Source of the DNA: Prevotella sp.
GTDB taxonomy: Bacteria; Bacteroidota; Bacteroidia; Bacteroidales; Bacteroidaceae
Assembly: GCA_017443345.1 (NCBI GenBank)
Contig: JAFSNR010000020.1
Span: 62,001 to 126,000, forward strand
DNA length: 64,000 nucleotides
Reading direction: 5' to 3'
Position 1 is the first letter of the stretch. Each line of letters starts with the position of its first letter. The translations under genes and the position numbers were made by a program. This document shows positions 8,075-31,507 of the stretch, one piece after another. The notes under the pieces are model-generated. The model had not been told where the DNA came from. It was given only the letters and a program-made list of their open reading frames with translations, and made no database searches.

Positions 8075-8743
8075 TTATTCATCCTGACCCAGTCGCATAC
8101 CTTGACTGTAATCGAAGTTGTTGGCCTCTCCCAACTTCTGATTTTCCTTTTCTTCCAGATAGCGCTGATAAGCCTCATCGATTTCAGTCTGCTTCTGCTC
8201 GAGTTGGTTATCGGCCATCTTCTGAGTCCGTTCATGAAGCTCATCGAGGGCTTGCAGGGCCTCGTCGGTCTCGTCTTTGGAGACGCCGACCTTCGTCAGG
8301 TTCTCCAGCAGACTCTCCTTGAACTCGACACGGATGGCCTCAAGACGAGCGCCGCATTCCTCATGGAGTCCCTTGATGGCATTCTGCAGGAAGTCGTGAC
8401 GGTTCTCATCGACCTCAGGCATCGTGTAAAGGATGTATGACCCACCACCAGAGGTCTTGAGCTCCATCTTAAACTCGGGATGGGCCTCGTAGATGCCCTG
8501 AATGATGTCCTGCTGATTGTTCTCGTTCTTGGGATAGACACTGAACTGGAACTCATCGGGACTATAGACATTGGCCACATCCTCGATATTGTAGACCTGA
8601 TCACCAAGATAGACATTGACAGGCATCAGTGCTCCCAACTCAGCTTTGACACAGAGGTTCATATACCTGTAGCTGAGCAGGGAGACGTAGGCACTCATCT
8701 TCTTCTGGGCACTGTCGATTTCTGTTATGACGTAGTTATTCAT
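8075..8743 (-). CDS. Third cassette protein (222 aa, helical tail ending SQGMRLGQDE), cassette C
   Basis: This intact 222-residue protein has no signal peptide and I do not recognise the family. The N-terminal half (about 1-110) is mixed alpha/beta: YRYMNLCVKAELGALMPV, VYNIEDVANVYSPDEF, IIQGIYEAHPEFKMEL. The C-terminal half (about 120-210) is charged and helical, probably a coiled coil (DEALQALDELHERTQK), and ends NNFDYSQGMRLGQDE. The paralogues are at 30830-31507 and 58589-59281; the first shares the same C-terminal tail. It starts only 6 bp after the truncated beta-repeat gene. Constant position as last gene of the set suggests a chaperone, adaptor or structural partner of the spike. The role is unknown. 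It remains open although the two genes before it are broken. Confidence 0.85.
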   Translation of the reverse strand: MNNYVITEIDSAQKKMSAYVSLLSYRYMNLCVKAELGALMPVNVYLGDQVYNIEDVANVYSPDEFQFSVYPKNENNQQDIIQGIYEAHPEFKMELKTSGGGSYILYTMPEVDENRHDFLQNAIKGLHEECGARLEAIRVEFKESLLENLTKVGVSKDETDEALQALDELHERTQKMADNQLEQKQTEIDEAYQRYLEEKENQKLGEANNFDYSQGMRLGQDE

Positions 8744-9901: not shown

Positions 9902-12900
9902 GGTCGCCGATCATCTCCTTCCACTGATTCAGACTGAGCGATTTGCTGGCATTCTCCATAATATGATCGGCCATACTCTTCAGAAGCGGATTCATGGCGG
10001 CATCGCCAATCTCCGACACGAGATTTCCCCACAGGTAGTTGTCCTTCGCCTTGTCGTCGGTCACGTCGTCTGCCTTATAGTTGACCTTGAACAGCTGAAC
10101 CGTCTTATGGTCGGGATGACCAGCCACTTTGGCTACGAACAGGGCAGCCAGCTTACGTTTGTTGATCATCTTGTCCTTGACCATCGAGTCACTGGGGATA
10201 GCCGACTTCAGGAATTCCTTCATGTCGGTGCCGTAGTCGGTCTTCACCTTCTTGATCACATCGTCCTTCAGATCCTGGAAGGCCTCTTTCAGCGACTTGT
10301 CGATGTAGTTGTGGCCTACTTCTCCCATATCGTCAAAGAGTGTGGCAAAGCTTTCAAGATGGGTACGCAGGACATGAATCGCCTCACCCATCGAGTTAGC
10401 CAGCGGGAGGACATCCGACTTACGGTCCTCGTCGCTCCTCAGCTTGATGATAGTACCCTTCTCGATCTTGATCTTCTTCAGTTTGGCATCCTTGAGGGCA
10501 TCTACCTTGAATTCGTTGCCCTTCCACTCTTCATCGGGAGCCAGGTCGAAGGCCTTCTTGATGAGGTCTTTCGCGACGGGACTCTTGAACAGTTCGGTCT
10601 CTGCCTTCACATAAGCCTCCTTCTTGCTGAAGGCATCCATCCACATGGCGCGATAGTGGATGACGAACTCGTTGAGACGGGCGTCGAGCAGCGATACCCG
10701 TTCGTTCATCCGCTTGTAGAAATCCTGCGACTTTGCCAGTTTCTCCTTCTTCGACGCATCCCAGTCCTTGTAGCGGTTCTGGTTGATGACGGTCTTGCCT
10801 TCGCCAGCCTCCAGTTTCATATAACGCTTCGACTTCACGAGCATCGTGCCCTCGATGGGCTTGAGGAAGGTCTCCAGCACCGTACGGAACAAAGCGACGT
10901 CAAGAGGTGATGACAACAGTTTTTCGGTCGCCTTTCCGCTCGCCTTATCGACGGCACTATCGGCCGCTGATGCCAGTTTACCTTTCATCGTCGTCGTGTC
11001 GATCTTCTTCTTGATGTTCTTGCCCGATATCAGCGACAGGTTGTTACCAGCCTCGATGGTAACGTTCTTACCCGCAATCTTCACTTCGCCGTTGGGTGCA
11101 GTGATGGTGATACCCGAATAGGCATCGAGTTTCACGTCACCGAGAGTAGAACTGATCTTGATGCTCCGTTTGTCTGCCGACATATCGATGGAATCTAGTC
11201 CGAAGCGGTCACCGATACGGATACCACCCGCGAGATCCTTCGACTTGGGCAGATTCATCGGCACCAGACTCGTTGCGACATTCAGAGCCGGGAAAACACT
11301 CGACACGAAGCCATCCGCCGACGAAGGATCGTTGAAGGTGATGGCGTGTCCGTTAGGCGAGACAATGGCAATCGAGGCATCCTTGTGCAGATTGGGTCCC
11401 ACCGTACGGTTGATACGCTCATCGGGGGCCAGCGTGTTCTTCGAGAACAGGCTGCCCACCACGTAGGGACGTTCCACATTGCCGCCTTCGAAGTTCACCA
11501 GCACCTCGTCGCCTATCATCGGCTTGAAGAAGGTACCGCCACCATCGGTCGCCATCGGTGTTGCCACACGGACCCACGGGGTGGAGATATCTACCAGCTT
11601 CTTCTTATAGACGCCAATTGCTTTGACAAGTGCCGTTTTCTTCGCCTCCATCTGTTTCTGGGCCTCTTCAATATCGGCCTTGAGTTTCTCGACGAGTGCC
11701 TTCTGTGCCTTGAGGGCTGCCTCAACTTTCTTGGTGTAATCCTCGAATTCCTCGCTGCTCATGTCCTTGAGCTGTTTCGCCTGAGCCTCGAGCTGTGCCT
11801 TCGCCAACGTGAGCGCCTTCACCTCATCCTCTTTCTTGGGATCGTCCTTTTCCTCGTCGATTTTCTTCTGAAGAGCCAGGATGGCCGCACCCTTCGTCAG
11901 CAAAGTCATGATCTGCCCCTTCTTCAGCGTCTCCAATTCACTCTCCATCGGCTTGATCTTGGCCTGTTCCTCACTCAGCTTCTTCATTATTTCCGCGAGG
12001 TTCATGACCGATTTGGCATACTCGATTTCAGAAAGGGTCATCGCCCTTGCCTCTTCGAACTCAGGCTGCCAAGGGAAGACGATACGCACACGCCCCTGAT
12101 ACTTGGGATCCTGATTGTCGGTGACGAAGGCCGTCTGAGGTTCGGAATGGCGGACGAGCGGCACGTGGTACAACGGCGGGAAAGCCTTCTTCACCACTTG
12201 TTCTCCCACCTGCAACGTCGCCAGAGGGACGGCGAAGATCTTCTGCGACAGTTTGCCCACACTCTTCGCATCGATGGCATCTGCCTCATAGGTCTCGTAT
12301 TCATTGCTCCATTTGTCCTCACCCGACATCACGATCTGAATCACGATATAGATATTCCCGGAAAGACTGATCATCTGACCCAGCTTCACATCCTCGACGT
12401 TGCTGCTCATATCGATGCAGACGATGTGCTTCTGCAACGCTTCCTCGTATTTGTGGATCGCATTGTAGAAGCTCAGCGTGGTCCAGCCTTCGACATCGTA
12501 GGAACTGAAAGGTACCGTCTGCTTCCCGTCACCGAACTCCGTCTTGTCGTATTTATCGATATATTTCTCCTTACCGGCTTTATTGACCGATTCCACCTTA
12601 GCCTTACTCGACGTCTCCTTCTCGACCTTATCGGCTGCGATGGCTTTGGCGAAGTCGTCGGCACCATCAGCCTTCTCCATCGCCTTCACCATTGTCGGAA
12701 ACGCCTGCGAGGTGACCATATCGTCGCTACCGCCCTCATAGCCCATCTCACGGGTCTGCGAGGTAAACTTATCGGCGGTCAAGGGGAAGAAATACTCGTC
12801 GGCCGACAGTTCGGAGTGGTAGGCTCCCTCTTGGGGGAAGAGATCCCTCGGGAACCCGGCTGGGTTTTTCCCCACACGGTTATAGTTCGTGTCGGCCGTC

Positions 12901-13773
12901 TGTCCCGCACCGTCCTTCATGCTGTCGCGGGAATAGAACGAGCCGGTCTCCCCGTTGCTGGATACACGCTGGTAGGTCACCGACGCGTAGCCATCGATCA
13001 CCTTTGGTGCCCCCGTTGACGGGCAGACCCAGTATCAACTTGCCATCCTCATAAAAGAGGAACTCGCCACAGCGGTTGGCTGTTCTCACCATGAAGTCAT
13101 AGAAGCTTTCGTTATACTGCACGAGGTAAGGCTGTATCATCTCCGAAGGGATACCGAGCGTATCACCATTCGGAGCCGTTACCTTCTGGTTGTACCTCAG
13201 GAACTGACGGAAGTCGTGATTCTCCGCCAGCACCTGTTCACCCACCTTGTATTTCAAGGCCTCCTTAGCCAGGATGCCCGAGCCCAACTTCTTGGCCACG
13301 AAGGTCTTGGAACTCTTCTCAAGCGTCATCAACTTGTCCATGCTGTAGATCAACAGACGTACGAACAGCCGATAGCTCTTGTCGGCCTGTTTCACCAGAT
13401 GAGGATCCAGCTCATAGACATAGTAGTTCTTGGCTATCTGAAGTTTTTCGCCCTCCTTGCCGTCCGTGTCTCTCTTCACCAGATAGAGATCCACAACGGT
13501 GTTCAACAGCAGTTTCGAAACGGCGGCAACGGTGTTATCGGGCGTTTCCGCCTCGTCGTCCTCATTTTGCCAGATAAACATCTCCGCCTCGATCTCACCC
13601 GGCTGGTAGATCTTACGGTTGAAGCTGATGCCGCCAATGGTCACCGTATAGATATGGTTGTCTATAGCGTACTCACTGTCAACCTTGTTCTCCATCGTCA
13701 GGAGTGTATCAGTGCCCTCTCTGTTCTTGACCTTGGTGCCAAAACAGAGTCTGTAACCGAGATGATCAGCCAT
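9902..13773 (-). pseudogene. VgrG-like spike gene, cassette C, broken by a frameshift and a 3' deletion
   Basis: The gene starts 3 bp after the STAS gene and reads in one frame to about 13015 (RKIYQPGEIEAEMF, PYLVQYNESFYDFMVR, FLFYEDGKLILGLPVN). It continues in another frame (VIDGYASVTYQR onward) to the break near 9902. Removing one base from the run of five C at 13010-13014 joins the frames with good homology. The OB fold (GRVRIVFPWQ ... TPWVRVATPMATDGGG) is split by a 161-residue coiled-coil insert, the shortest of the four copies. The needle repeats (APNGEVKIAGKNVTIEAG) are present. The last 40 or so residues, found in other copies as GQILFSD..., are absent; instead the frame reads into the truncated neighbour and stops at 9825. 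Without an assembly error this copy cannot make a normal spike. Confidence 0.8.
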
Positions 13774-13776
13774 AAC

Positions 13777-14079
13777 TTAAATAAATTCAAACAGATTAGA
13801 AAAGCCCGTCACATTAAACACGTCGCGCAACGGCTGGGACATATTTTTGATGATGATATGCTTGCCCTGCGGCTGAGTATCGATCAGCATACTCAGGAAC
13901 AGGCGCAGTCCGCTCGAGGCGATATACTCAAGCAAGGTGCAGTCGATGATAATCTCCTTACACTCAGTCTCATAGACAGGTTTCAGGTCTTCCCCTGTCG
14001 CTTCCGATACGGAAGTATCCAGCCTTCCTTCCAGGTAGACGGTCATAACGCCGTCGTTTTCTTCAATTTTCGTTATCAT
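13777..14079 (-). CDS. STAS-domain protein, cassette C
   Basis: The 100-residue SpoIIAA/RsbV-like domain has the conserved site IIDCTLLEYIASSGLRLFLS, with the phosphorylatable Ser in SSG. It lies between the TPR-type phosphatase gene (30 bp upstream) and the broken spike gene (3 bp downstream), all on the minus strand, so the three form one operon. Likely role: substrate of the adjacent phosphatase and switch for the cassette. It is intact although the spike gene downstream is broken. Confidence 0.9.
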   Translation of the reverse strand: MITKIEENDGVMTVYLEGRLDTSVSEATGEDLKPVYETECKEIIIDCTLLEYIASSGLRLFLSMLIDTQPQGKHIIIKNMSQPLRDVFNVTGFSNLFEFI

Positions 14080-14109: not shown

Positions 14110-16200
14110 TTATTTTAACCGCACGCACATCAGCGTCAGGTCGTCGTTGGGTTCTACTCCGGCGCGATGCTGCTCTACGGCCTCCTTCAGTCTGTCGATC
14201 ACCTCACGCGAAGAGAGGTCCTGCATGTCGGCGATCAGCTCCAACAGGTGGTCGTCACCGAACTGCTCCTTCTGTCCGTTCTCGGCCTCGTTCAGACCGT
14301 CGGTATAGATGAGCAGCTGACGTCCTCGAATGTCATCGATGGTCTCCCCGTCGAAGGGGTCACCCTCCCAGAGACCGAGCGGATGGTTCTCATATTTCAT
14401 CTCCAGGAACTGACCGTCGAGAACAGGAGGGTTGTGTCCGCAGTTGCAGAAGTCGAGCCGGCCGGTGTCGAGGTGGAGCTGTCCGATAAACATCGTGACG
14501 AACATCATACGTTTGTTGTTCTCAGCCAGTCCCTTGTTCATACGGAAGGCGATATCGGCTGGCGAGAGCCCCTCGGCGGCGAGCGTACGGAACAGGCGGG
14601 CACTCTGCGACATAAACAGCGAGGCGGGCACGCCCTTGCCACTGACATCACCCAGACAGAAGTGCAGCATGTTGCCCTGCAGCACATAGTCGTAGAGGTC
14701 ACCGCCCACCTCCTTAGCCGCATTCATCACAGCATACATGTCGAGTCCTTCGTATAGCGGGAATTCCTGGGGCACCATCGACATCTGGATGTCGCGGGCG
14801 ATGCGGAGCTCACTCTCGATGCGCTCCTTAGCGGCAGTCGTCTCCTCCAGCTGGTCGTAGGCTGTCTTCAGCTCCGTGTGGGCCTTCTCCAGCGACTCAT
14901 GTGCAGCAGCCAGACGGTTCTCCGCGCGCCGGCGATACCATGTATATATGATAAAGAATGTGGTGAGCAACACCAGAACCACGAGTGTCCCTATCAACCG
15001 CTGGCGGGAGAGTGAAATCTGCTGCTGCGCTATCTCGGCATCCTTCTGATGCGTCTGGTAGATGGTGGCGAGTTCGGCAGCATTACTTTTCTGTTGTTCC
15101 GTGATGGCCTGGTCGAGGTCCTCGAAGACAAAATTGGCTACTGCCAGGGCCGTGTCGATCCGGCCAGCCTTGTAGTTGGCCCTGAACTTTTCTCCATAGT
15201 AATTCAAGTTGAACAGTGAGAGTTCCAACCCACGTTCGGCAAAGTCTTGGTCCAACACAGCGTATTCATCAGCAGCTTCAGCATAATGCTTTGCTCCTAA
15301 CAAGACAGATGCGAGATCCGACTTCCCCAGATTACTTTGAGCATATTTGGTGGTCCTAAAGGCAGCTACCGCACGGTTGAATTCCTCCGGCCTGTTCAAA
15401 AACGCTGCAACGTCTGCATGATGCAAATAAGATTGTCCCATCATCATATCAGAATCAGCGGGTGCAAGACCGCGTCCTTCCTTGATCAAAGCAAGCACAG
15501 AGTCCTGTCGGGCGAGCCATTCCTCGACAGAGGCCATGTCTTTAGCGTTATTGTAACTTGTTATAAAACCTTCGAGAGTCCTAAAACGTCTTTTATAATC
15601 TCCAGGCGTTTCCAAGGGTATTTTTAGCAGATAGCCGTAACACTCTTCAAACATCTTGTCAGCCTCCTCCTTCATACCAAGAGACATCTGTATCTTTCCC
15701 ACTAAAAACGTGAGAGACCTCAATCTTATTGTGACTTCCTTTGAAGGATGCTCCCTGTCCATCTTCCGCAAGCCTTCGAGGGATGGAAGAGCCAATTGTA
15801 GCGCTTCACCGTCATCTCCTGCAATCCAGAGAGCATCCGCCAATTGATATGTGATATTAAAATACGCCAAACTGTCCTCGGTATTCTTCGGTTTCTCGAG
15901 GAGTGCCTGTCTCAGTTCTTTTTGTTGGGCTTTAGGCTTACCTGAATAGTAGTATGCAAATCCGCGCTCATAAGCGGCTTTGTACAACGAGATGTCACCC
16001 CGCTGCTCCAGACTGTCGCACAGGGTCAGCACGCGTTCATAGTCACGGGCATCAGAGGCAGCATTGATCAGGCTGTCGGCTGCTGTCTGTTTCAACTCAT
16101 TCTGCCGCCTGTGACTGCACGCAGCGGCGAACATGAGGGCCAGTATCATCACTGTTATGACAACAAATGAACCCGTCAAAAAACGATAGATCTTCAACAT
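14110..16200 (-). CDS. Membrane SpoIIE/PP2C-type phosphatase with TPR-like sensor region
   Basis: 696 residues. The N-terminus has a hydrophobic segment ending ALMFAAACSHRR, which could be a membrane anchor or a lipoprotein signal. Then come about 350 residues of helical repeats of TPR type (ADALWIAGDDGEALQLALPS, GKIQMSLGMKEEADKMFEEC, LGAKHYAEAADEYAVLDQ), a membrane segment at about 400-422 (GTLVVLVLLTTFFIIYTWYR), a coiled coil, and a PP2C domain from about 455 with KEVGGDLYDYV, LGDVSGKGVPASL, YTDGLNEAEN and EPNDDLTLMCV. It heads the operon with the STAS gene and the cassette C spike. The sensor differs completely from the dCache type of the two other membrane phosphatases, so cassette C would answer a different signal. 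Confidence 0.9.
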   Translation of the reverse strand: MLKIYRFLTGSFVVITVMILALMFAAACSHRRQNELKQTAADSLINAASDARDYERVLTLCDSLEQRGDISLYKAAYERGFAYYYSGKPKAQQKELRQALLEKPKNTEDSLAYFNITYQLADALWIAGDDGEALQLALPSLEGLRKMDREHPSKEVTIRLRSLTFLVGKIQMSLGMKEEADKMFEECYGYLLKIPLETPGDYKRRFRTLEGFITSYNNAKDMASVEEWLARQDSVLALIKEGRGLAPADSDMMMGQSYLHHADVAAFLNRPEEFNRAVAAFRTTKYAQSNLGKSDLASVLLGAKHYAEAADEYAVLDQDFAERGLELSLFNLNYYGEKFRANYKAGRIDTALAVANFVFEDLDQAITEQQKSNAAELATIYQTHQKDAEIAQQQISLSRQRLIGTLVVLVLLTTFFIIYTWYRRRAENRLAAAHESLEKAHTELKTAYDQLEETTAAKERIESELRIARDIQMSMVPQEFPLYEGLDMYAVMNAAKEVGGDLYDYVLQGNMLHFCLGDVSGKGVPASLFMSQSARLFRTLAAEGLSPADIAFRMNKGLAENNKRMMFVTMFIGQLHLDTGRLDFCNCGHNPPVLDGQFLEMKYENHPLGLWEGDPFDGETIDDIRGRQLLIYTDGLNEAENGQKEQFGDDHLLELIADMQDLSSREVIDRLKEAVEQHRAGVEPNDDLTLMCVRLK

Positions 16201-16342: not shown

Positions 16343-16648
16343 ATGGTAAAAATTACAATTAAAGAAGAGGCCGATCGCATGGTCGCCATCTTGGACGGAT
16401 ATCTGGATACACCGTCGTCGCCCAAAGCCGAAGAAGACATGCAGCCCTTGCTCGCTTGTAATGACAAGGACATCTTGCTCGACTGCAAGTTCCTGGACCA
16501 CATCGCATCGAGCGGACTGCGCATCATTCTCACCATCCTACAGAATTCCAAGGATCATGGCCACAAGGTTTACATCAAGGATCTGAGAGACAACATCAAG
16601 GAAGCCTTCAAGATAACAGGCTTCACAAAACTGTTTGAGTACGTCTGA
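16343..16648 (+). CDS. Stand-alone STAS-domain protein
   Basis: The 101-residue STAS domain carries LLDCKFLDHIASSGLRIIL, the same phosphorylation-site pattern as the cassette STAS proteins. It is transcribed away from the TPR-type phosphatase gene, with 142 bp between them, and is followed by a hairpin terminator rather than a spike gene. It may be a second substrate of the phosphatases or of the single RsbW-like kinase at 57732, or the remnant of a fifth cassette. I see no clear promoter of the usual type in front of it. Confidence 0.88.
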   Translation: MVKITIKEEADRMVAILDGYLDTPSSPKAEEDMQPLLACNDKDILLDCKFLDHIASSGLRIILTILQNSKDHGHKVYIKDLRDNIKEAFKITGFTKLFEYV

Positions 16649-22326: not shown

Positions 22327-24144
22327 ATGGCGCAGACAAAAACCGAAACAACGAATCATAAAACCAACATCAACTATAAAGGCTCAGAAAGCCTAAGTTT
22401 CTGGGAAAAGCTGAAGAATGTCCTGAAGCGGAACATCGGCCTGACCGCCATCATCAATGCGGCCCTGCTGCTGGAAATCACGTCGGGACTGGCGCACTAC
22501 GCGCAACAGGACTTCGGCCGGGACACGATGGAAAGCCTCGTGGACCAGGAGATGGAAACCATCTTCTACCGCATCCATGACCACCTGTCGAAGGTGGAGG
22601 TGACCATCAACAACATGTCGTGGGTGGTGAGCGATGACATCGCCAAAGCGGACTCGATGTTCGCCATCACGCGGAGTATCGTGGAAAACAATCCCGCCAT
22701 CCTGGGTAGCGCCGTCGCCTTCATCCCGAACTATTACCCCGAGAAAGGATACTGGTTTGAGCCCTACGCGGCAAGGCGGGCAACGCCCTTCGGCACCGAG
22801 ACCGTCGAGACCGTCCAGCTGGGGTCGGAATCGCACGACTATACGAAAAGTGAGTTCTTCACCGTACCCCTTGCCACGAACAGCGGACACTGGTCCGAGC
22901 CTTACATGGACCCCGACGGGGCGAAGGCGATGGTGACCACCTATGGTGTGCCCGTGCATGACCGCTCGGGGAAGACGGTGGCCGTCGTCAATGCCGACAT
23001 CTCGCTCGAATGGCTCAACCAGGTGATCGCTGAGGAAAAGACCTACGCGAGCACCAAGCGCTACCTCGTGACCGGCAGCCACCAGTTGCTCTCGGGCGAA
23101 GACGGACCGGAGCTCCAAACGCTACTCGAGATGCTGAAGGCGGAGCCTGACAGGGACTGCTACCACAGAGTGAAAAACAAGCAGGGGGCGGAGCAGCACA
23201 TCTTCTTCCATGCCGTAGGCGGTAAGACGGACTGGGTGCTCATCACCGTCCTCGACGATGGCGACGTGTTCGACAAGATACGCAGAATCAGACGGATGTT
23301 GTTCCTCGTGAGGATCCTCGGACTGATCATTCTGGGATATATCGTCTACCGCACGTCGAGGAGTATGGAGAAGCTGCAGGAGGTGAACGCCGCCAAGGAA
23401 CGGCTGGATGCCGACCTGCGCGTGGCCTACAAGATCCAGCAGAGCATACTGCCCAAGCACCATCTGAAGCAGGAGGAGGTGGACATCTGCGGATCGCTGG
23501 TGCCTGCCCGAGAGGTGGGAGGCGACCTGTATGACTACTTCATCCGCGACGGAAAGCTGTTCTTCTGTATCGGCGATGTCAGCGGCAAGGGGGTTCCTTC
23601 GACCATGCTGATGTCGAGTACCTGCACGCTGTTCCGTACCTTCGCGGCTCACGAGGACAATCCCGCCAGCATCATGCAGTCGGTCAACGCAGCAATCTGT
23701 CTGAAGAACGCCACCCAAATGTTCGTGACGGTCTTCATCGGCGTGCTCGACCTGCAGACGGGACATCTGTGCTACTGCAATGCGGGGCACGAGGCGCCTG
23801 TCATCCTGAACCCGGCGCTCGCAACGCTGCCCGTTCAGCCCCATATCCCCATCGGCCTGTTCAACAACATGCAATACGGGCTGCAGGAGACCGACCTGCC
23901 GGCCGACAGTACCATCTTCCTCTTTACCGACGGACTGACGGAGGCGATGGACGAGGAGAAGCAGCTGTTCGGAATAGAGCGCGTGAAGACCGTGCTCCAG
24001 CGGTGCGCCGAGCAACAGCAGAGCCCGGAAGAGATGATCAGCGCGGTCAGCAAGAAGGTACACCACTTCGTGAAGGAGGCCGAGCAGAGCGACGACCTGA
24101 CGCTGGTGGCCATCCACTATAAGCCCAACGCTGAAAACAAATAA
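22327..24144 (+). CDS. Membrane SpoIIE/PP2C-type phosphatase with dCache-like sensor, cassette B
   Basis: The 605-residue protein is closely related to that at 6244 along its whole length. Membrane segments lie at about 35-55 and 325-345. Between them is a dCache-like region (NNPAILGSAVAFIPNYYPEKG, KSEFFTVPLATNSG, TVAVVNADISLEWL). The PP2C domain follows from about 368 with REVGGDLYDYF, IGDVSGKGVPSTML, FTDGLTEAMD and SDDLTLVAI. It is the first gene of the cassette B operon, 35 bp ahead of the STAS gene. Expected role: sense an external ligand and dephosphorylate the STAS protein. The shared dCache region with the 6244 product suggests both answer the same or a similar signal. Confidence 0.93.
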   Translation: MAQTKTETTNHKTNINYKGSESLSFWEKLKNVLKRNIGLTAIINAALLLEITSGLAHYAQQDFGRDTMESLVDQEMETIFYRIHDHLSKVEVTINNMSWVVSDDIAKADSMFAITRSIVENNPAILGSAVAFIPNYYPEKGYWFEPYAARRATPFGTETVETVQLGSESHDYTKSEFFTVPLATNSGHWSEPYMDPDGAKAMVTTYGVPVHDRSGKTVAVVNADISLEWLNQVIAEEKTYASTKRYLVTGSHQLLSGEDGPELQTLLEMLKAEPDRDCYHRVKNKQGAEQHIFFHAVGGKTDWVLITVLDDGDVFDKIRRIRRMLFLVRILGLIILGYIVYRTSRSMEKLQEVNAAKERLDADLRVAYKIQQSILPKHHLKQEEVDICGSLVPAREVGGDLYDYFIRDGKLFFCIGDVSGKGVPSTMLMSSTCTLFRTFAAHEDNPASIMQSVNAAICLKNATQMFVTVFIGVLDLQTGHLCYCNAGHEAPVILNPALATLPVQPHIPIGLFNNMQYGLQETDLPADSTIFLFTDGLTEAMDEEKQLFGIERVKTVLQRCAEQQQSPEEMISAVSKKVHHFVKEAEQSDDLTLVAIHYKPNAENK

Positions 24145-24179
24145 TTGAAAACATTAATAACTTTTAAAATCCCAAGATT

Positions 24180-24482
24180 ATGAATCTGAAAATTGAAGAA
24201 ACCGACGAAAGGTATTTAGTGACACTGGAGGGCAACATGGACTCACCAGCCGTCTTGGAAACCGAGGAACTGATTGAGCCAGTCTATAAGGGCGACAAGG
24301 ATGTCGTCATCGACTGTAGCCATCTGAATTATATCGCATCGAGCGGCCTACGCGTACTGCTGAGTATCCGGCAAGGAACCGGCGCCAACGGCAAAAGCGT
24401 CGTGATACGAGGGCTCAACGACGAGATCAAGAACGTGTTTAAGATGACAGGATTCATCAACCTCTTCACACTTGTGGATTAA
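24180..24482 (+). CDS. STAS-domain protein, cassette B
   Basis: The 100-residue STAS domain has VIDCSHLNYIASSGLRVLLS, the conserved phosphorylation-site loop. It lies 35 bp after the phosphatase gene and 30 bp before the spike gene in one operon. This is the most direct link in the window between partner switching and the spike cassette. No kinase gene of the RsbW type is present in this operon. Confidence 0.92.
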   Translation: MNLKIEETDERYLVTLEGNMDSPAVLETEELIEPVYKGDKDVVIDCSHLNYIASSGLRVLLSIRQGTGANGKSVVIRGLNDEIKNVFKMTGFINLFTLVD

Positions 24483-24512
24483 TAACTTGAATATGTAATC
24501 TTCTTTACTACT

Positions 24513-27500
24513 ATGGCAGAACAAGATACACTGAAGAGTTCGGACTACGGTCACAGGTACCGGATAGTCTTCGGGCCGAAGATTACGGCCCCGCAACAGA
24601 GCGTTACACCCATAGACATCATACAGTCGAAAGAACTGACACTGGAGGATAGCGCCAGGAGAATAGCCTTCAAACTGGCGCTGCACGGCATCAAGATCAA
24701 CAAGAGAATCTATCAGCCCAACGAGATAGAGGCAGAGCTCGACTTCATGAAGGCTGACAGCAACGGGGCCGTCACGCTGCCCGACTTCGACGACGTCAGC
24801 GGCCTGTTCGCTGAGCGCATGGTGACGGTGTCGGTCCAGATGATTGCGCCCGGAACGGGAGAGAAGGCGGGCGAGACCACCATCGCCAGCGCCTACTACG
24901 TCCACGAACTGAATTCGCATGTGGCGACCGACACAAACGGAACGAGGAAGATGTACGTGAAGCTGCACATCTTCAGTATGGACAAGCGGATGACGCTCAA
25001 CAAGTACAGCAAGGCCTACGTGGCCCGCAAGCTGGGTTCGGGCATCCTGCAGATAGAGGCGAAGAACTTCGGTATGCTCGACGAGGGCAACAAGCAGCCG
25101 CTGATCAGCACCAACATCAAGGGACTGCGCTTCCTGAGATACAACCAGGAGACAACCATCAAGATACTGGGAAAGGGCAACATCAGCGCCAAGATTCCTT
25201 CGGAGTTCATCCACCCCTACCTGGTGCAGTACAACGAGTCGTTCTATGATTTCCTCGTGCGCAGCGCCAACCGCTACGGTGAGTTCCTCTATTTCGAGGA
25301 CGGCAACCTGAACCTGGGTCTCGCGCAGAGCGGCGACACCGTAGAGATCAAGGACTATCAGTCGCTGACCACCCAGGAATGTGCCGACGAGCCGTTCAAC
25401 GTGGATTTCTACCGTCGTGACCCGATGAAGGATATGGTCGACGACAGCAAGGTCGATCTGAACTCGACCTACGTGGACAAGCGCGACGACGGATTCCCCA
25501 AAGACGCCTTCCCCGACAACAACAAGTTCCAATACAATGCGGAGGCCGTCAACGACGAGTATCTCTTCCCCTTGTTCAAGGACAAATTCACTGATTTCAC
25601 ACGCGAGAGGAAGTTTGACAAGCCCACCAATCAGGGCGTTCTGGCCCACCTCATGCCTTTCATCAGGAATTTCCTCGGAAGCGAGCTCACGACCTGGTAT
25701 GTCGGAATAATCGTCAGTGCGGTGCAGGCCATCATCGTCGAGGAGGGCGTGAAGGCCGGCACCACCCTGTTTGTCCTAGGAATGACGGGCGGGCGCAATG
25801 GAGAAGAGAACCCCAAGCACATCGAGGCGTTTAACAAGCTGAACGAGCAAAGCAACGGGAACAAGGTGGTACAATTCGGTGGACTCGACCCCAAGAGCTG
25901 GGTGACCCTCGATTACTACAACACCATCAAGAAGCACCAGTACGAGCAGCAGCGAAAGATGATCTGCATCGACATGGGCGTGAGCTATGCCCCCGTGAAG
26001 CTCGGACAGAAGATCAAGGTCGACGGACTGAAGCAGTCGTACGTCGTCGTGCAGATTGTGCAGAAGTCGGAACAGGCATGGGGTCGCGACTATGACCGCT
26101 ACGGAGAGGACAGCAAGGACAAGAGCGAAGGTCAGCGTTCACAGAAGATCTACGCCATTCCTGCCTACGAGGAAGACAACGAGGAGAAGTTCATCCCGCC
26201 GGTACAGCCCGTAGACATTATCCGCAGGACTGGTCCGCAGGCTGCCTTCGTGACCGACAACGACGACCCGAAGAATCAGGGACGCGTGCGCGTGATGTAT
26301 CCTTGGCAGACTTCATCGGAGCTGATCTCACTGAAGAAGGTCAGCGAGAACGTGGCTAACCGACTGAAAGAGGCCACCGCCGCAGAGAACGAAGCCAAGC
26401 AAAGGAAAATGGACACGATAGCTGCGATCGCCCTACTGCAGGAGCAGTTGTACACCTTCAAGGAGTTCCTGAAGCTTTCACCAGCAGAGCGTAAGGCAAA
26501 GCTCGAGAGCATGCAAACCGTCCTGGACGAGAAGGAGAAGGTCGTCAACAAGAAACAGAATGAGCTGACTGAGCTGAAGCGCCAAGAAGCCGAACTGACC
26601 GCCATCGCAGAGCCTACAGAGGAGCAGAAGGGACAACTGATCATCATCAGAACCAAGATTGACAGCAAAGAGAGTGAGTTTATCAAGGCTCGTGACAGGC
26701 GCGACAAGGCTGCCAGCGATTTGGCGCTCTATCAGGAGGCCCATAACCACAAGCTCGACGAGAAGGATCAGAGCAAAGACAAGACCGACTACAACGATGA
26801 CGAGAACCCCGTTGTGAAGAGACTGGCAGAGTCCTTCTATCAGAAGAAGCAGGAACTGGTAGAGTGCAACAAGGCCTGCGAAAAGGCAGAGGTGGAGAAG
26901 ACGGCTGCAGAGGCCAACGACAAGAAGATGAAGGAAGTGATGGACGTCGTCTACAAGACGCTCTCGTCGCCCTGGGTCCGCGTGGCAACACCGATGGCCA
27001 CCTTCCACGGAGGCACCTACTTCAAGCCCAGAATCGGCGACGAGGTGCTCGTGGACTACGACAACGGCAACATCGAGCGCCCTTACGTGACGGGCAGTCT
27101 CTACTCAAAGAACGTGCTGGATCCGCAGGAGCTCATCGAACGAAGATACAGTCCAGAGAGCCAGTGGAGCAACGTGTCGATGGCGATGGTATCGCCCAAC
27201 GGCCACCATATCACCTTCACCGATCCCCCTGGAGGACTGGGATTCGTCACCAATGCCATCTCGCCGGGATTGGGGATGTATGGCGCACTGATGGGTGTCA
27301 ACTCTTCGGTCGGAGAGAGTTTCAAGGACCTCAACGGCGGTATCCACATCGGCGACCGCTACGGTATCTATGAGATTGAGATGCTGACCCACAAACGCCA
27401 AATCGGCATCAGGTCGCCCTTCGGCACTGTTAACATCGATGCCTTTACGGGTATCAGCATCAATGCGCCCAACGGTGACGTCACCATCAGGGGCAAGAAC

Positions 27501-28859
27501 ATCAAGCTCGAGGCGGGCAACAAGATTACCATCAACTCGGGCACAAACCTCCCGGTGCCTGACTATGGCGACTCACCCTGCGGCAAAACCACAGCCGCCA
27601 ATATCGGCAAGGCTATCGTCGAAGGTGTTGCGGGAGCTGTCACCGACATGTTTGTCTCTTCGATCGTAGACCTCTCGCTGGTGCGTCACGTCATAGAGGT
27701 ATACATACGCCCCGTAGACGGAACGACGCTGATCAAGTCGAGGAAGTTCCTGAAGCTGGAGGCCGGACTGGGCAAGGCCACCGTGAAGCGCAAAGACTAC
27801 AAGCAAACGACGTACAACGCCCTGAACGGCTCGGAGGAATTCTACAAACTGGTGATCAATCATGTCATGACGATTAGTTCGGCTGTCGACGTATTCTTCG
27901 GGAACTACTATGTCAAGTACCTGACTGCCCATCATACCAAAAACGCCTATTTCCTGGCGGGCGACAATATCTTAGATAATCCTAATGTACCCAACCTGTA
28001 CGAAAAGGCCCACGCAGATCTGACCAACCTCCCCGAAAGACTGAAGGTTGACGACTTCAAGGATTGTTTCTTGGAGAGCGGTATAGACAAGGACAAAAAG
28101 AAGGTTGAAGGCAAGGAGAATATGTTCAAGGCCATTGAAACGGAGGCCAACAACTTCATGGATACTGTCTGGGACCTCTACCACTATATGCGTGTAGACA
28201 CCTTAAAGGAACTCATTGAGCTCAAAGAAGACGCTGTGCCCAACGAGTTCAAGTTTGTGGCAAAGGCCTCGAAGAGTGTGCTGGAGGCCGGTAAGGATAC
28301 AGACTGGCTTCTTGAACAGTTCAGTAAATGGGACGAACGGAATTGTGATGGACCCACCGACTTCCTGATAACTAAGGAACCCACACCGACAGACATCTTC
28401 AACAAGTCGAACAGGCTCTACTTCAAGCGTCTCCTGATCCTGTTCTTCCTCTATCGCGTCTTCAAGGAACAAGAAGAAGAGAACAAAACAAGTCTCAATC
28501 CGAAGATGTACATCCACATCACCTATGATCCCAAGGATCTTACTAACGAGAAAAATGTACCTCTGCGGCAGGCTTACTGGTGGAAGCGACAGGTGGACGT
28601 CATCGACCGCATCAGTCAGAACTCTTTGCTGCGCTCGCTCTACGAGAGTACTATCCAGAAACTCATAGACCGCTGGAAGGCCAACTACGAGGGACTGAAG
28701 GACAAGCAGGTATGGGACGCCAACTACGACGGCCAGATACTCTTCTCAGACAAGGAAGATTCGACGCTGAGCTTCGAGGGTGAGGGCGTACACCGCGAGA
28801 CTGATGCTAACCAAGGCACATTGGAGCATCTGAAATGGATTTTAAGAGACATTAAATAA
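24513..28859 (+). CDS. Giant VgrG-like spike protein with coiled coil in the OB fold, cassette B (intact)
   Basis: 1448 residues, no signal peptide. The gp27-like region (about 1-575) contains INKRIYQPNEIEAELDF, RMTLNKYSKAYVARKLGSG and PYLVQYNESFYDFLVRSANR. The OB fold begins RRTGPQAAFVTDNDDPKNQG, reaches PWQ at 597-599, is interrupted by 219 coiled-coil residues, and resumes at SPWVRVATPMATFHGG (819 on) and GDEVLVDYDNGNIERPYVTG (about 841). Then come NGHHITFTDPPGG, GGIHIGDRYGIYEIEM and needle-type repeats (NAPNGDVTIRGKNIKLEAG) to about 1005. The last 440 residues are mostly helical and unrecognised, with the shared end motif GQILFSDKED. In VgrG, the OB fold and needle form the trimeric membrane-piercing tip. 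Here the coiled coils would project sideways or form a bundle. The operon gives its partners: STAS before it, beta-repeat protein and third protein after it. Confidence 0.88.
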   Translation: MAEQDTLKSSDYGHRYRIVFGPKITAPQQSVTPIDIIQSKELTLEDSARRIAFKLALHGIKINKRIYQPNEIEAELDFMKADSNGAVTLPDFDDVSGLFAERMVTVSVQMIAPGTGEKAGETTIASAYYVHELNSHVATDTNGTRKMYVKLHIFSMDKRMTLNKYSKAYVARKLGSGILQIEAKNFGMLDEGNKQPLISTNIKGLRFLRYNQETTIKILGKGNISAKIPSEFIHPYLVQYNESFYDFLVRSANRYGEFLYFEDGNLNLGLAQSGDTVEIKDYQSLTTQECADEPFNVDFYRRDPMKDMVDDSKVDLNSTYVDKRDDGFPKDAFPDNNKFQYNAEAVNDEYLFPLFKDKFTDFTRERKFDKPTNQGVLAHLMPFIRNFLGSELTTWYVGIIVSAVQAIIVEEGVKAGTTLFVLGMTGGRNGEENPKHIEAFNKLNEQSNGNKVVQFGGLDPKSWVTLDYYNTIKKHQYEQQRKMICIDMGVSYAPVKLGQKIKVDGLKQSYVVVQIVQKSEQAWGRDYDRYGEDSKDKSEGQRSQKIYAIPAYEEDNEEKFIPPVQPVDIIRRTGPQAAFVTDNDDPKNQGRVRVMYPWQTSSELISLKKVSENVANRLKEATAAENEAKQRKMDTIAAIALLQEQLYTFKEFLKLSPAERKAKLESMQTVLDEKEKVVNKKQNELTELKRQEAELTAIAEPTEEQKGQLIIIRTKIDSKESEFIKARDRRDKAASDLALYQEAHNHKLDEKDQSKDKTDYNDDENPVVKRLAESFYQKKQELVECNKACEKAEVEKTAAEANDKKMKEVMDVVYKTLSSPWVRVATPMATFHGGTYFKPRIGDEVLVDYDNGNIERPYVTGSLYSKNVLDPQELIERRYSPESQWSNVSMAMVSPNGHHITFTDPPGGLGFVTNAISPGLGMYGALMGVNSSVGESFKDLNGGIHIGDRYGIYEIEMLTHKRQIGIRSPFGTVNIDAFTGISINAPNGDVTIRGKNIKLEAGNKITINSGTNLPVPDYGDSPCGKTTAANIGKAIVEGVAGAVTDMFVSSIVDLSLVRHVIEVYIRPVDGTTLIKSRKFLKLEAGLGKATVKRKDYKQTTYNALNGSEEFYKLVINHVMTISSAVDVFFGNYYVKYLTAHHTKNAYFLAGDNILDNPNVPNLYEKAHADLTNLPERLKVDDFKDCFLESGIDKDKKKVEGKENMFKAIETEANNFMDTVWDLYHYMRVDTLKELIELKEDAVPNEFKFVAKASKSVLEAGKDTDWLLEQFSKWDERNCDGPTDFLITKEPTPTDIFNKSNRLYFKRLLILFFLYRVFKEQEEENKTSLNPKMYIHITYDPKDLTNEKNVPLRQAYWWKRQVDVIDRISQNSLLRSLYESTIQKLIDRWKANYEGLKDKQVWDANYDGQILFSDKEDSTLSFEGEGVHRETDANQGTLEHLKWILRDIK

Positions 28860-28874
28860 ATAAAGCCGACAATT

Positions 28875-30797
28875 ATGGACTATATATTCAATGACTGGGA
28901 AAAGAAGCTATCGAACTTTGCCGACAGCGTTGAGAAAGACCTGAACGAAATCAGGCAGTGTAAGGCCGAAATCCAGCAGATGAAGCTTGAGATGGAGGTC
29001 GAGAGAAAGAGAGGCCGTTACGTGCGCGACGATCACAGACTGGTGCTCTCGGCACCGGAGATCGTCATCGGCAACGTGGACCGCAACGGGACCCTCTTCC
29101 CCGGTGGTTCGACCATCGTGGTCAGAGGTACCGATGTGGGTGTGCAGGCAGCCGGTGAGGGCGGACAGCTGGAGATGAGAGCCGCTGGCATCCGTCAGAT
29201 TGCCGAAGACCCGGGTGTAGACGGCTACGAGCACGTGGTGTATAACCATTCAGAGGTGGTCAGTCAGGCCCGCAACATCATCATCCAGAGCGACGAGACG
29301 ACCGGTGCCTTCTTCGCGCCCACCCTCCCCACCGGAGGTAGCGGTGTACGCATCCACGCCGACCAGAAAGTCGACATCGAGGCTGCGATGACGGCTGAGA
29401 GTCGCGAAAAGCAACTCGACGATATCACCAAGGATGCGGAGGACATGAAGAAGGTACTGAAGGAGCAGGCCGACCAGCAGAAGAGCGGACTCAAGAAATC
29501 AATCGAGGAGATCATCAAACTCATTGAGAAGAAAGAGAAGCTGGCCGAGGACTATACGGCCGTACGCACGAATGCTGCCGACATTCAGGGGCTCGACCGT
29601 CAGTTACGCGAACTGTCGTCGAGCATCGCCAACTGCATCTACGACTATTCGGAGGTGCTCTCACAACTGGCAGAGGCCAACCGACAGGCGAAGAGCTTCA
29701 AGGCGCAGAAGGAGACCATCGTCAAGGGTGAAGACTTCAAGAAAAACGCGACGGGTGCTGCTGTCGCCATCACCGGTGAGCGCATCTCGCTCGTTTCTGC
29801 CGACGGCGAGGGTAACCTGCGCGACAACGAAGGCTCGGGCATCGCGATGAAGGCCAACAAGGTCGACATCGCCTCAGTCGAGGAAGACGGCAAGCTGAAG
29901 GAGAAGGGACAGGTCAGCATCACTGCGAAGAACATCGATATGACCACAGCCGGCGAAACCGGTCAGGAGTACGAGGAAGGCGAGCTGAAGACTGCTGCCT
30001 ATACGGCAGAAGGCGACTTCACCCTGCGCTCGAAGAACATCACCATCGAAGCTGTCGACTACGAGATGGCCGAGAAGAAACGGAAAGAGAAGCAACTCAC
30101 CGCCGAGAGCACCATCAAGCTCAGGGCGAAGACCATCGAGGTATCGACCGAAGGCTCGAAGGATATCGAAGTCGACGAGGAGGGCAAGCTCACGAAGGCC
30201 AGCTACACGGCCGAAGGCGATATCATCGTGCGCTCGAAGACCCTCAGTGTCGAGAGTATCGATCACGATGTGGAGAACGGACAGGCAACGGAGAAAGCCC
30301 TCACAGCAGGGAGCACCGTCAGCATCAGAGCCGAGAAGACCGACCTTGCTGCCACCGACACCGAAGGCAAGGCTACGGGCAGCGTGAACATCAACGCGAA
30401 GGACGTCAGCGTGAAGTCGATGGACGTAGACAAGGAGAAGCGTACCGACAGCAACCTCGCCGAAGGCAGCACGATGACGCTCGTCTCGGAGACACTCTAC
30501 ATCGGTGCCCAGTCGGACGACGTGAAGAGCAAGCTGGTTCAGGCCCAGAGCGAGGAAATCACGCTCGCAGCCGACAAGACCCTCAAGGCCCAGCAGGACA
30601 AGGAGAAAGCCTTACTGCAACTGGCCGATGGCAAGTCGACGCTGAAGAGCGACGCCAACACCATCAACGGCAACACCACCCTCAGCGACAATGCCGAAGT
30701 CAAGGGCGAAATCAAGTCGCCTAAGGCTACCATCGACCACATCAAGGCCAACAGCTCACTCAATTCACCTAACATCAGCGACGGTATGGCCGTTTAA
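28875..30797 (+). CDS. Coiled-coil/beta-repeat spike-associated protein, cassette B (intact)
   Basis: 640 residues, no signal peptide. In order: an N-terminal helix (MDYIFNDWEKKLSNFADSVE ... KCKAEIQQMKLE, 1-45), a beta block (LVLSAPEIVIGNVDRNG, IRQIAEDPGVDGYEHVV) to about 165, a central coiled coil at about 175-290, and then about 320 residues of repeated strands of the form ASIxxRAKTxxVxSxD, for example GSVNINAKDVSVKSMDVDKE. The end is PNISDGMAV. It starts 15 bp after the spike gene. The repeats resemble the intertwined needle of gp5/VgrG, so a trimeric fibre that extends or caps the spike is my best inference. An effector or receptor-binding fibre is the alternative. No PAAR motif and no toxin domain are visible. 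Confidence 0.87.
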   Translation: MDYIFNDWEKKLSNFADSVEKDLNEIRQCKAEIQQMKLEMEVERKRGRYVRDDHRLVLSAPEIVIGNVDRNGTLFPGGSTIVVRGTDVGVQAAGEGGQLEMRAAGIRQIAEDPGVDGYEHVVYNHSEVVSQARNIIIQSDETTGAFFAPTLPTGGSGVRIHADQKVDIEAAMTAESREKQLDDITKDAEDMKKVLKEQADQQKSGLKKSIEEIIKLIEKKEKLAEDYTAVRTNAADIQGLDRQLRELSSSIANCIYDYSEVLSQLAEANRQAKSFKAQKETIVKGEDFKKNATGAAVAITGERISLVSADGEGNLRDNEGSGIAMKANKVDIASVEEDGKLKEKGQVSITAKNIDMTTAGETGQEYEEGELKTAAYTAEGDFTLRSKNITIEAVDYEMAEKKRKEKQLTAESTIKLRAKTIEVSTEGSKDIEVDEEGKLTKASYTAEGDIIVRSKTLSVESIDHDVENGQATEKALTAGSTVSIRAEKTDLAATDTEGKATGSVNINAKDVSVKSMDVDKEKRTDSNLAEGSTMTLVSETLYIGAQSDDVKSKLVQAQSEEITLAADKTLKAQQDKEKALLQLADGKSTLKSDANTINGNTTLSDNAEVKGEIKSPKATIDHIKANSSLNSPNISDGMAV

Positions 30798-30829
30798 TAG
30801 AAACATCAAAAGAAAACGAATACATCATT

Positions 30830-31507
30830 ATGAACAGTTACTATTACGCACAGCTCAAGGATTTCACAGAGAAAGCCAGAGGCTATAATATGATGTTTAA
30901 CTACCGGATGATGAACCTCTGCGTCAAAGCAGAACCCGGTGCACTGGTGCCGGTGATCGTCACCGTCGGTGGCAAGGACTACAACCTCGAAGAGGTGGCC
31001 CAGATACGCAGACCCGACGACTATATCTTTGAAATCAGGGCGAACAACAGCGACTACCTGCAGAATATCATCGATGGTATCATGGACGTACATCCGGAGT
31101 TCGTGTTCGAGATGAAGACCGAGAAGGACATCGAGGAAAAGGACGTGAACTATGCCCAATACACGATGCCGGAAGTGGACAAAGATCGTTACGACCTGTT
31201 GTCAGAGACCACCAAGGCTTTCTACAACGAGTGTCTGGTCAGCATCGATGCCGTCTACGCCCAGAAGGAGGCCAAGTTGGCCGAGGTGGCCGTCCACGCG
31301 CCCGCTGAGGATGTCCAGCAGATCAAGGACGAGCTCGACGAGTATTATCACAACGCCAAGGACGAGGCTCAGAAGATGCGCGACATGAAGTTGCAGGAGA
31401 TCGAGGAAGCTTATCTGCACTACCAAGAGAAAGAGCAGGATCGGGAAATCGGTAAGATCAACAGTTTCGATTACAGTCAAGGCATGCGACTGGATCAGGA
31501 CGAATAA
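30830..31507 (+). CDS. Third cassette protein (225 aa, tail SQGMRLDQDE), cassette B
   Basis: This 225-residue paralogue of 8075-8743 and 58589-59281 is of unknown family. The N-terminal half is alpha/beta (YNMMFNYRMMNLCVKAEPGA, KDYNLEEVAQIRRPDDYIFE, IIDGIMDVHPEFVFEM). The C-terminal half is a charged coiled coil (EVAVHAPAEDVQQIKDELDE) and ends NSFDYSQGMRLDQDE. It is the last gene of the cassette B operon, 32 bp behind the beta-repeat gene and followed by a terminator. The constant place and the N-terminal similarity between cassettes suggest binding to a shared part of the spike or beta-repeat protein. Confidence 0.87.
   Translation: MNSYYYAQLKDFTEKARGYNMMFNYRMMNLCVKAEPGALVPVIVTVGGKDYNLEEVAQIRRPDDYIFEIRANNSDYLQNIIDGIMDVHPEFVFEMKTEKDIEEKDVNYAQYTMPEVDKDRYDLLSETTKAFYNECLVSIDAVYAQKEAKLAEVAVHAPAEDVQQIKDELDEYYHNAKDEAQKMRDMKLQEIEEAYLHYQEKEQDREIGKINSFDYSQGMRLDQDE

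Follow-up and report, generated by a model that had tools for sequence, protein, structure and literature searches.

On balance, we favour the view that the giant spike cassettes in the window, a stretch of 64,000 nucleotides of contig C77 of a draft genome, are alternative spikes of one Type VI secretion system of subtype iii (T6SSiii), that they are equipped with adaptors of the fold of ribosome recycling factor (RRF), and that those spikes which lack an Hcp of their own are licensed by a STAS switch. The four cassettes of the window would then be four of ten alternative spike modules for the single T6SSiii found in the genome. The draft is 92% complete and its nearest named relatives are Prevotella; the source is a gut-type bacterium, kin of the rumen Prevotella.

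Four giant spikes and the T6SSiii of the same genome

Each cassette combines a STAS gene, a giant VgrG-like spike gene, a gene for a coiled-coil/beta protein (BETA) and a gene for a protein of 222-230 amino acids. The four recurrences described in the original prediction are borne out by alignments and by a Pfam scan of the window, which covered 39 of 41 ORFs picked from 158 listed; copy 2 is damaged, and copies 1 and 4 are cut by the window and extend beyond its ends. Copy 3, on the forward strand, encodes a spike of 1448 amino acids (24513..28859; PF04717 2e-17, matched in two stretches) and a BETA protein of 640 amino acids (28875..30797), which has no Pfam family and was aligned with seven other copies in the same genome. 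The spike and BETA genes of the other copies are on the reverse strand. Copy 1 comprises a BETA gene that is cut by the window end and continues on C77 (1..1233) and a spike of 1504 amino acids (1246..5760; PF04717 9e-14), and copy 4 a BETA protein of 663 amino acids (59321..61312) and a spike cut by the other window end (61346..64000; PF04717 1e-20). In copy 2 the spike is split over two frames, with an N-terminal piece (12880..13773) and a C-terminal piece (9825..13001; PF04717 1e-17), and BETA (8750..9901) has lost its first ~280 residues.

The Phage_base_V/VgrG OB domain exceeds its cut-off in all four window spikes, and the match to the GPD (gp27-like) domain lies below its own. Within the OB domain of the copy 3 spike there is a charged insertion of ~220 residues; such insertions measure 199-326 residues in 12 of the 13 spike ORFs that the strict motif recovered, and 64 residues in the remaining one. 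The copy 3 spike shares 33-43% identity with the rest of the spikes in the window. Ten giant spikes of ~1200-1500 amino acids are encoded in the source genome, each with an RRF-like gene, and one of them, on contig C114, carries a stop codon. The PDB matches of BETA are coiled coils, designed or adhesin helices, at about residues 180-290, and a profile comparison, made to see whether BETA is a copy of the VgrG tail, gave 50% probability over 99 columns. The products of each module may be a trimer of the giant VgrG, a partner rich in beta structure and coiled coil that is probably an extension of the spike, and a protein of the RRF fold.

The claim that sheath, tube and ATPase genes are absent holds for the window, where no T6SS sheath, tube or ClpV-type family matched among the 39 ORFs scanned, and fails for the genome, since a search for a T6SS elsewhere located such genes on contig C72. 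This contig bears the single TssC match of the genome (PF17541, 9e-100; a second could be missing because the draft is incomplete), three TssD/Hcp matches (PF17642; 7e-26, 4e-14 and 5e-10, the third related to the first) and a ClpB/ClpV-type AAA protein (L032:783-3323, compared with models other than the ClpV-specific one). The cluster surrounds one of the ten spikes and also contains a DUF4280 protein, which we take to be PAAR-like, a gp25-like TssE over its cut-off and a TssK match below its cut-off. At the end of the cluster lie candidate genes for the membrane complex TssN-TssR. A sheath-less or non-T6SS injection device was dropped as an explanation after TssC, Hcp and the DUF4280 gene had been found around the same type of spike. 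With a T6SSiii elsewhere in the genome, whose TssC would account for the spikes without the sheath of an extracellular contractile injection system, the window cassettes most probably add spikes to a known machine and do not form a system that lacks a sheath.

With the T6SSiii of Bacteroidota, as described in PMC10781749 and PMC4714493, this machine shares TssC, TssD, a ClpB/ClpV-type ATPase, a VgrG OB domain and a DUF4280 protein in one cluster. It differs in its ~1200-1500-aa spikes with OB-domain insertion, in BETA, in the RRF-like gene and a ThiF-family gene, and in having ten spike units per one sheath gene found. BETA was found in none of 16 other T6SSiii genomes without an RRF-like gene, these being all but one of 17 other TssC-bearing genomes (G470, with a TssC fragment of 42 positions, was omitted). 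Spike matches were obtained in 14 of the 16, in ORFs of 558-785 amino acids except for one of 1028 amino acids and one 161-aa fragment; the other two had no spike match. Genome G006 has RRF-like and BETA genes, yet its spike frame has only 737 amino acids.

The RRF-like protein

The protein of 222-230 amino acids, left unnamed in the original prediction, is, judged by its Pfam and PDB matches, a paralogue of RRF in which the RRF core is kept. In the window it is encoded by copy 2 (8075..8743, reverse strand, 222 amino acids; PF01765 8e-15), copy 3 (30830..31507, forward strand, 225 amino acids; 6e-8) and copy 4 (58589..59281, reverse strand, 230 amino acids; 4e-10), all over the cut-off. The Pfam RRF model recovers nine of the ten RRF-like genes of the genome, eight over the cut-off and one below it, and one was not found. 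Conversely, a profile of the RRF-like proteins recovers ordinary RRFs (37 of 37 fetched loci checked, with at most seven candidates scored per genome). When a 74-row profile led by the copy 3 protein was compared with the PDB, 20 of 21 matches were RRFs, the best being 1eh1 (8e-13), and the homology spans both RRF domains (profile positions 9-195 against residues 7-183 of 1eh1). A coiled-coil artefact is ruled out by the coverage of both domains, by the recovery in both directions and by the predominance of RRFs among the PDB matches.

Unlike ordinary RRFs, the RRF-like proteins have lost conserved arginines: R30, R131 and R134 (numbering of the organism's own RRF) are invariant in 37 RRFs and retained in 0%, 0% and 8% of 92 RRF-like proteins, which have gained the motif HPEFK. 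The NCBIfam frr model was reached at E 0.01 by one of the three window copies, with 24.1 of 149.1 bits. By frr equivalog score and conserved arginines, the RRF-like proteins would not count as functional RRFs, and an ordinary RRF is encoded on contig C75 of the same genome.

In other genomes, 80 of 83 units have the RRF-like gene on the 3' side of BETA, and in 13 loci it stands beside TssK-, TssE- and TssF-like genes. T6SS spikes are served by adaptors or chaperones (Tap/DUF4123, Eag/DUF1795 and DUF2169), with one gene per spike close 3' of the spike gene. The RRF-like gene likewise occurs once per spike and close 3' of it; it differs in that its Pfam match is RRF, and no DUF4123, DUF1795 or DUF2169 match appeared in the window scans. 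We infer that the RRF-fold protein most likely serves its own spike alone, as an adaptor or as a factor in assembly. It is improbable that it is instead a delivered effector that disturbs the ribosomes of target cells. Many T6SS cargo genes are encoded next to the spike, and both this position and the derivation from a ribosome-binding factor would suit such an effector. However, the protein is present with all ten spikes of the genome and among core T6SS genes in the 13 loci, its RRF arginines are lost, and the gene that follows it varies between units. No effector/immunity pair was seen beside the window cassettes in an incidental look, and the three window copies of the RRF-like protein matched no PHROG at E 0.01 in a search for phage relatives. 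We know of no other non-ribosomal branch of the RRF family, so that the RRF-like protein would be the first, and judged from titles and the beginnings of abstracts we found no paper linking RRF to VgrG or T6SS.

Own Hcp or own STAS gene across Bacteroidales

As originally described, the STAS gene lies just upstream of the spike gene in three copies, with gaps of 29, 3 and 30 bp in copies 1-3 and in the same direction as the spike (5790..6092, reverse strand, 100 amino acids, PF01740 5e-12; 13777..14079, reverse strand, 3e-15; 24180..24482, forward strand, 1e-15). In copy 4 the gene order is RRF-like, STAS, RsbW-like HATPase and phosphatase, all on the reverse strand; this STAS has a C-terminal extension and was recognized by alignment and whole-genome search (58156..58566). 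A further STAS gene (16343..16648, forward strand; PF01740 1e-11) is not beside a spike and is divergent from the copy 2 phosphatase. The motif SSGLR is kept in all five window STAS proteins, including that of copy 3, and the strict pattern [ST][ST]G[LIV]R is present in 28 of 36 STAS matches in related loci and absent from the other eight.

A SpoIIE-type phosphatase over the cut-off (PF07228) is found in or next to every copy, and the sensors differ among copies, both as originally predicted. Those of copy 1 (6244..8037, forward strand, divergent from the STAS gene; 9e-50) and copy 3 (22327..24144, forward strand; 9e-51) carry a PDC/Cache sensor (PF22673, 2e-18 and 4e-20). That of copy 2 (14110..16200; 3e-42), 30 bp upstream of STAS on the same strand, has a weak TPR/DUF6377-like match and no Pfam sensor over the cut-off in its N-terminal half, and in that of copy 4 (56953..57729, 258 amino acids; 2e-48) no sensor domain was found. 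Among the window copies, an RsbW-like HATPase of the serine kinase type accompanies copy 4 only (57732..58148; PF13581 6e-16); the source genome has six PF13581 matches of at least 58 bits.

Across the source genome, STAS lies within 1 kb of six of the ten cassettes (expected 0.6% per unit) and SpoIIE within 5 kb of seven (expected 4.9%), in tests that are not fully independent because the four C77 copies adjoin one another. This enrichment, together with recurrence in other genomes, rules out a chance linkage to the spikes. The cassettes on C185 and C114 have neither STAS nor Hcp nearby.

For comparison we used 79 loci of a further 46 Bacteroidales genomes, drawn from the best 80 of 83 relatives and all located via their RRF-like gene. 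After removal of second gene pieces (L068, L127), 85 rows became 83 and 60 complete units became 58, where units with less than 3 kb of upstream sequence, or without a spike or beta gene, were excluded. With limits of 1.5 kb upstream for Hcp, 1 kb for STAS and 4 kb for SpoIIE, 26 units have Hcp, 27 have STAS, none has both and five have neither. SpoIIE is near 25 of the 27 STAS units versus five of the 26 Hcp units. The split is not a mere contrast between core clusters and orphan units, since it persists when loci that contain core T6SS genes are set aside and 46 units are left (Hcp 16, STAS 27, both 0, neither 3; SpoIIE near 25 of 27 STAS units versus two of 16 Hcp units). At a limit of 4 kb, three units have both Hcp and STAS (L051, L071, L094). 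The Fisher values take no account of how the units are related to one another. The STAS units also lack the pair of Hcp and its ~160-aa partner (P160), and all 27 occur in Prevotellaceae. The predicted linkage of STAS and phosphatase to the spike therefore recurs and is not universal. The case in which the linkage was to be regarded as chance, that homologous spikes normally lack these genes, does not apply as worded: 31 of the 58 units, about half, are without STAS, but 26 of these 31 have Hcp instead. The STAS-phosphatase link belongs to one kind of unit and not to the spike as such.

It is very doubtful that recombination and transfer maintain the additional cassettes as a stock of diverged spikes in which the STAS genes hitchhike and serve no spike-related purpose. 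The damage to copy 2, the stop codon in the C114 spike and the low identity of the window spikes would agree with this. On the other hand, a quick tree of the RRF-like proteins, made without bootstrap, requires at least six changes between Hcp and STAS, either main side of that tree contains members of both of two STAS families that are separated by a deep split, and the serine motif is kept in most STAS proteins.

A possible switch for spike choice

A switch is mostly absent from modules that bring an Hcp and a ~160-aa partner, and most modules lacking this pair carry STAS. In the cycle that we propose, the STAS serine would receive a phosphate from a kinase, which is encoded beside copy 4 and may be shared by other modules, and would lose it on a signal through the phosphatase, in many cases a membrane protein that has a sensor of its own. 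STAS might then swap partners and license the production or the loading of its own spike. A kinase gene is near only nine of the 27 STAS units in other genomes.

As in the RsbU-RsbV-RsbW (Rsb/Spo) systems, the modules contain STAS with the SSG motif, an RsbW-like HATPase (copy 4) and SpoIIE phosphatases, some with sensors. In contrast to these systems, they are embedded in spike cassettes, usually with one STAS per such cassette, the kinase is missing from most, and the 39 ORFs scanned in the window include neither a sigma factor nor any other output protein next to the modules. It is possible, though rather unlikely, that the modules are ordinary partner switches for cassette transcription, in which STAS releases a sigma factor or regulator bound by an RsbW-like protein and has no contact with the secretion machine. 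STAS, kinase and phosphatase all belong to families of the sigma-factor type, and the short gaps and common direction of STAS and spike in copies 1-3 resemble autoregulated operons. Further STAS-HATPase-SpoIIE sets lie away from spikes in the source genome (C136, C69, C165, C148), and the C69 STAS groups among the cassette STAS on an equally quick tree, whose non-cassette members from this genome were C69 and the window STAS at 16343 (C136 and C165 failed the picking rule). That no sigma factor was seen next to the window modules speaks against a transcription switch, and the absence of the Hcp/P160 pair from STAS units is not predicted by a plain one. We consider spike loading somewhat more likely as the output of STAS than transcription.

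The threonine phosphorylation control of proteobacterial T6SS by PpkA-PppA-Fha is likewise a phosphorylation control linked to T6SS; the control predicted here differs in using STAS/SpoIIE modules, several per genome, tied to spike units. Ten spikes, six of them with their own switch gene, suggest that the cell picks its weapon tip by sensing. We tentatively speculate that one T6SS selects among ten spikes by signal, in that every cassette with a switch has a sensor phosphatase and a STAS protein of its own, which clears no spike but that of its cassette for loading, and that an RRF-derived adaptor carries out the loading. To our knowledge, T6SS research has yet to explain how the spike to be loaded is chosen in a cell that has many VgrG proteins, and no paper linking STAS-SpoIIE or partner switching to type VI secretion was found, judged from titles and the beginnings of abstracts. 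If true, the cell would have a sensory system for selecting its weapons, and the RRF fold would have been put to a new use. As the two kinds of unit, with own Hcp or own STAS switch, occur in many genomes, spike choice is directly testable in rumen commensals.

The cassette on C114 is located in an S10 operon. We rejected this as a regular insertion site, as no S10, L3 or L4 gene was found in the 79 related loci, and the location may be a misassembly; a single EF-G-like match among these loci lies in L051.

Spike cassettes of the window and of the genome

Four cassettes were borne out in the window, positions 62001-126000 of contig C77 in a 4.16-Mb draft genome that is 92% complete, by ORF listing and Pfam scans (39 of 41 picked ORFs). 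As originally predicted, a STAS protein, a giant VgrG-like spike, a coiled-coil/beta-repeat protein (BETA) and a protein of 222-230 residues recur; every cassette also has a SpoIIE phosphatase, and the fourth gene of copy 1 lies just beyond the window edge. Immediately 3' of that gene is a sensor histidine kinase (locus L035:6581-8635). BETA matched no Pfam family above cut-off in the window scans. In copies 1-3 the STAS gene precedes the spike by 29, 3 and 30 bp, respectively, and copy 4 runs in a single direction through spike, BETA, the 230-residue gene, STAS, an RsbW-like HATPase and the phosphatase. In copy 2 the spike and BETA (window 8750-13773) are damaged, with frame changes and a BETA without its N-terminus; despite this, the frames of STAS, phosphatase and the fourth gene are open. 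The OB domain of the copy 3 spike is in two parts about 220 residues apart. Among the 13 spike ORFs measurable by a strict motif, this insertion has 199-326 residues rich in K, E, L and A in 12 and 64 residues in one, a composition that suggests a coiled coil.

Different sensors on the phosphatases, which the original prediction had noted, were also found: PDC/Cache in copies 1 and 3 and on contig C100, weak TPR/DUF6377-like matches in copy 2 and on contigs C195 and C185, and none in the Pfam scan of copy 4.

The genome encodes ten giant spikes, four on the contig of the window (C77), two on C72 and one each on C185, C114, C195 and C100. The proposed dedicated STAS-phosphatase module for each spike complex is supported in part, and extended: STAS lies within 1 kb in six of the ten cassettes and SpoIIE within 5 kb in seven, and both C72 cassettes carry Hcp in place of STAS. 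The C185 cassette has a phosphatase two genes off and neither STAS nor Hcp in the 20 kb taken; from the 16-kb contig of the C114 cassette, STAS, Hcp and phosphatase are all absent. The C114 cassette (L030:1-16163) sits between rpsJ and rplC and interrupts the S10 operon, which may reflect misassembly because the contig is only 16 kb long.

The one TssC found genome-wide is on C72, together with a ClpB/ClpV-type ATPase, a giant spike, BETA, the fourth gene, a DUF4280 gene, two genes that Pfam assigns to TssD/Hcp, another such gene with 48% identity to the first of these, and a protein of ~180 residues (P160). Further along, the cluster continues with a ThiF-family (E1-like) gene (L032:17068-18198), which has related ORFs in 13 loci, then a 279-residue gene and TssK, the latter matched below its cut-off. 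A gp25-like TssE and other genes also lie in this stretch. An 819-residue protein at the cluster end (L047:6398-8857) has weak RING-like matches below cut-off, an FHA-like C-terminus by eye and related ORFs in 14 loci. A stand-alone PDC/Cache sensor protein with no phosphatase domain (L031:18578-19447) lies 3' of one Hcp-type cassette on C72; related ORFs occur in 19 loci, many being phosphatase ORFs and three equally short (L103, L112, L115).

A relative of ribosome recycling factor beside each spike

Judged from sequence, the fourth gene is a paralogue of ribosome recycling factor (RRF). The Pfam RRF model is over cut-off for three window copies (best 8e-15), and across the genome it finds one ordinary RRF (222 bits, C75) and nine RRF-like genes, eight of them over cut-off and all with a giant spike nearby. 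Pfam misses the tenth (C100), which was seen beside its spike and aligned with the other nine. RRFs made up 20 of 21 PDB matches of 74 RRF-like sequences (best 8e-13, nearly full length). Beyond the RRF-like genes of this genome, an RRF-like profile gave only 48-56-bit matches in 15 of 393 same-order genomes (own included), and all nine of these that were fetched are ordinary RRFs. Comparison of 92 RRF-like proteins with 37 ordinary RRFs (numbering of the C75 RRF) showed that the scaffold residues P71, P105, R111, L115, K179 and I183 are kept, that R30, G32, Y47, R131 and R134 are almost wholly lost, and that near-invariant HPEFK and N-L-C-x-K-A motifs are gained. Some of the lost arginines presumably contact the ribosome in E. 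coli RRF. The presence of one RRF-like gene per spike, close 3' of it, fits a candidate spike adaptor or assembly factor.

A search of genome contigs with the ten RRF-like proteins, from which the best 80 of 83 relatives were kept, gave 79 loci from 46 genomes, the RRF-like gene being present by construction (Prevotellaceae 66, Bacteroidaceae 6, Tannerellaceae (Parabacteroides) 3, Muribaculaceae 1, no family 3). Among 83 RRF-like rows, counted after dropping two split pieces, BETA lies upstream in 80 and a spike in 73; the ten spike-less rows are at contig ends or nearby, or have the RRF-like gene inverted (L122), or show no spike in the stretch examined (L123, L125). The RRF-like gene adjoins TssK-, TssE- and TssF-like genes in 13 loci, on the opposite strand in one. 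Of 16 T6SSiii genomes that lack an RRF-like gene (E threshold 1e-12), none was found to have BETA, and the spike ORFs in the 14 with a spike match have 558-785 residues, except one of 1028 and a 161-residue fragment. Two genomes that also have RRF-like genes, G006 and G034, both have BETA, with spike frames of 737 and 1177 residues, respectively. Since the trio of giant spike, BETA and RRF-like protein occurs together in RRF-like loci, while the 16 genomes free of RRF-like genes gave no BETA and mostly shorter spikes, the trio appears to mark a T6SSiii subtype.

Hcp units and STAS units

The predicted linkage of STAS and phosphatase to the spike recurs elsewhere. STAS lies within 1 kb of 27 of the 58 complete units of spike, BETA and RRF-like gene (18 upstream, 10 downstream, 1 of these both), and TssD within 1.5 kb upstream of 26, always with P160. 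At those limits no unit has both and five have neither; at 4 kb three have both (L051, L071, L094). SpoIIE is present within 4 kb of 25/27 STAS units versus 5/26 Hcp units, and HATPase near 9/27 STAS units. Because TssC or ClpV shares the locus with ten of the 26 Hcp units and with none of the 27 STAS units, the count was repeated without core-T6SS loci, leaving 46 units: 16 with Hcp, 27 with STAS, none with both and three with neither, with SpoIIE near 25/27 STAS units versus 2/16 Hcp units. Fisher values come to 8e-12 and 4e-8 in the set of 58 units and to 1e-9 and 2e-7 in that of 46, with the caveat that related units are not independent.

A quick tree built from the 92 RRF-like proteins requires no fewer than six changes between the Hcp and STAS states. 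A very long branch (SH-aLRT 100) divides the cassette STAS proteins into two families, and comparison of the two trees places both families on each main side of the RRF-like tree. That STAS was recruited repeatedly speaks for a function linked to these spikes. The 27 STAS units all belong to Prevotellaceae (15 genomes), and six genomes contain both kinds of unit.

Possible choice among spikes

One sheath/tube set for ten spikes would require a choice. Hcp-bearing units could assemble by default, and those without their own Hcp, mostly provided with a STAS switch and a phosphatase, often with a sensor, would depend on dephosphorylated STAS licensing the spike of its own cassette, whether through transcription or by a contact made with spike, adaptor or kinase. 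Loading has a small edge over transcription because STAS units are without the Hcp/P160 pair. Such a system would be a new T6SSiii variant, set apart by a phospho-switch linked to its spikes and by a component family that is itself new.

The T6SSiii of gut Bacteroidales and its TssN-R proteins have been described (PMC4714493, PMC10781749), and the accessible parts of both papers mention neither an RRF-like protein nor a STAS switch. Literature searches, with most subscription papers and all preprints outside their coverage, found nothing on RRF with VgrG and no report of a role of RRF or STAS in T6SS. Judged by their listings, the hits for RRF with type VI secretion were secretomes, transcriptomes, proteomes and genomes only, and the one for STAS/SpoIIE with type VI secretion was a signalling survey. 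Partner switching with VgrG returned only a Pseudomonas review, whose accessible passage on partner switching deals with the control of FliA.

Between copies 3 and 4, the window also contains a polysaccharide utilisation locus (31546-47520) with SusC/SusD, two GH43 and paired DUF6057/PD40 genes, and a tandem pair of large sensor kinases with solute-binding domains is located at 48177-53817.
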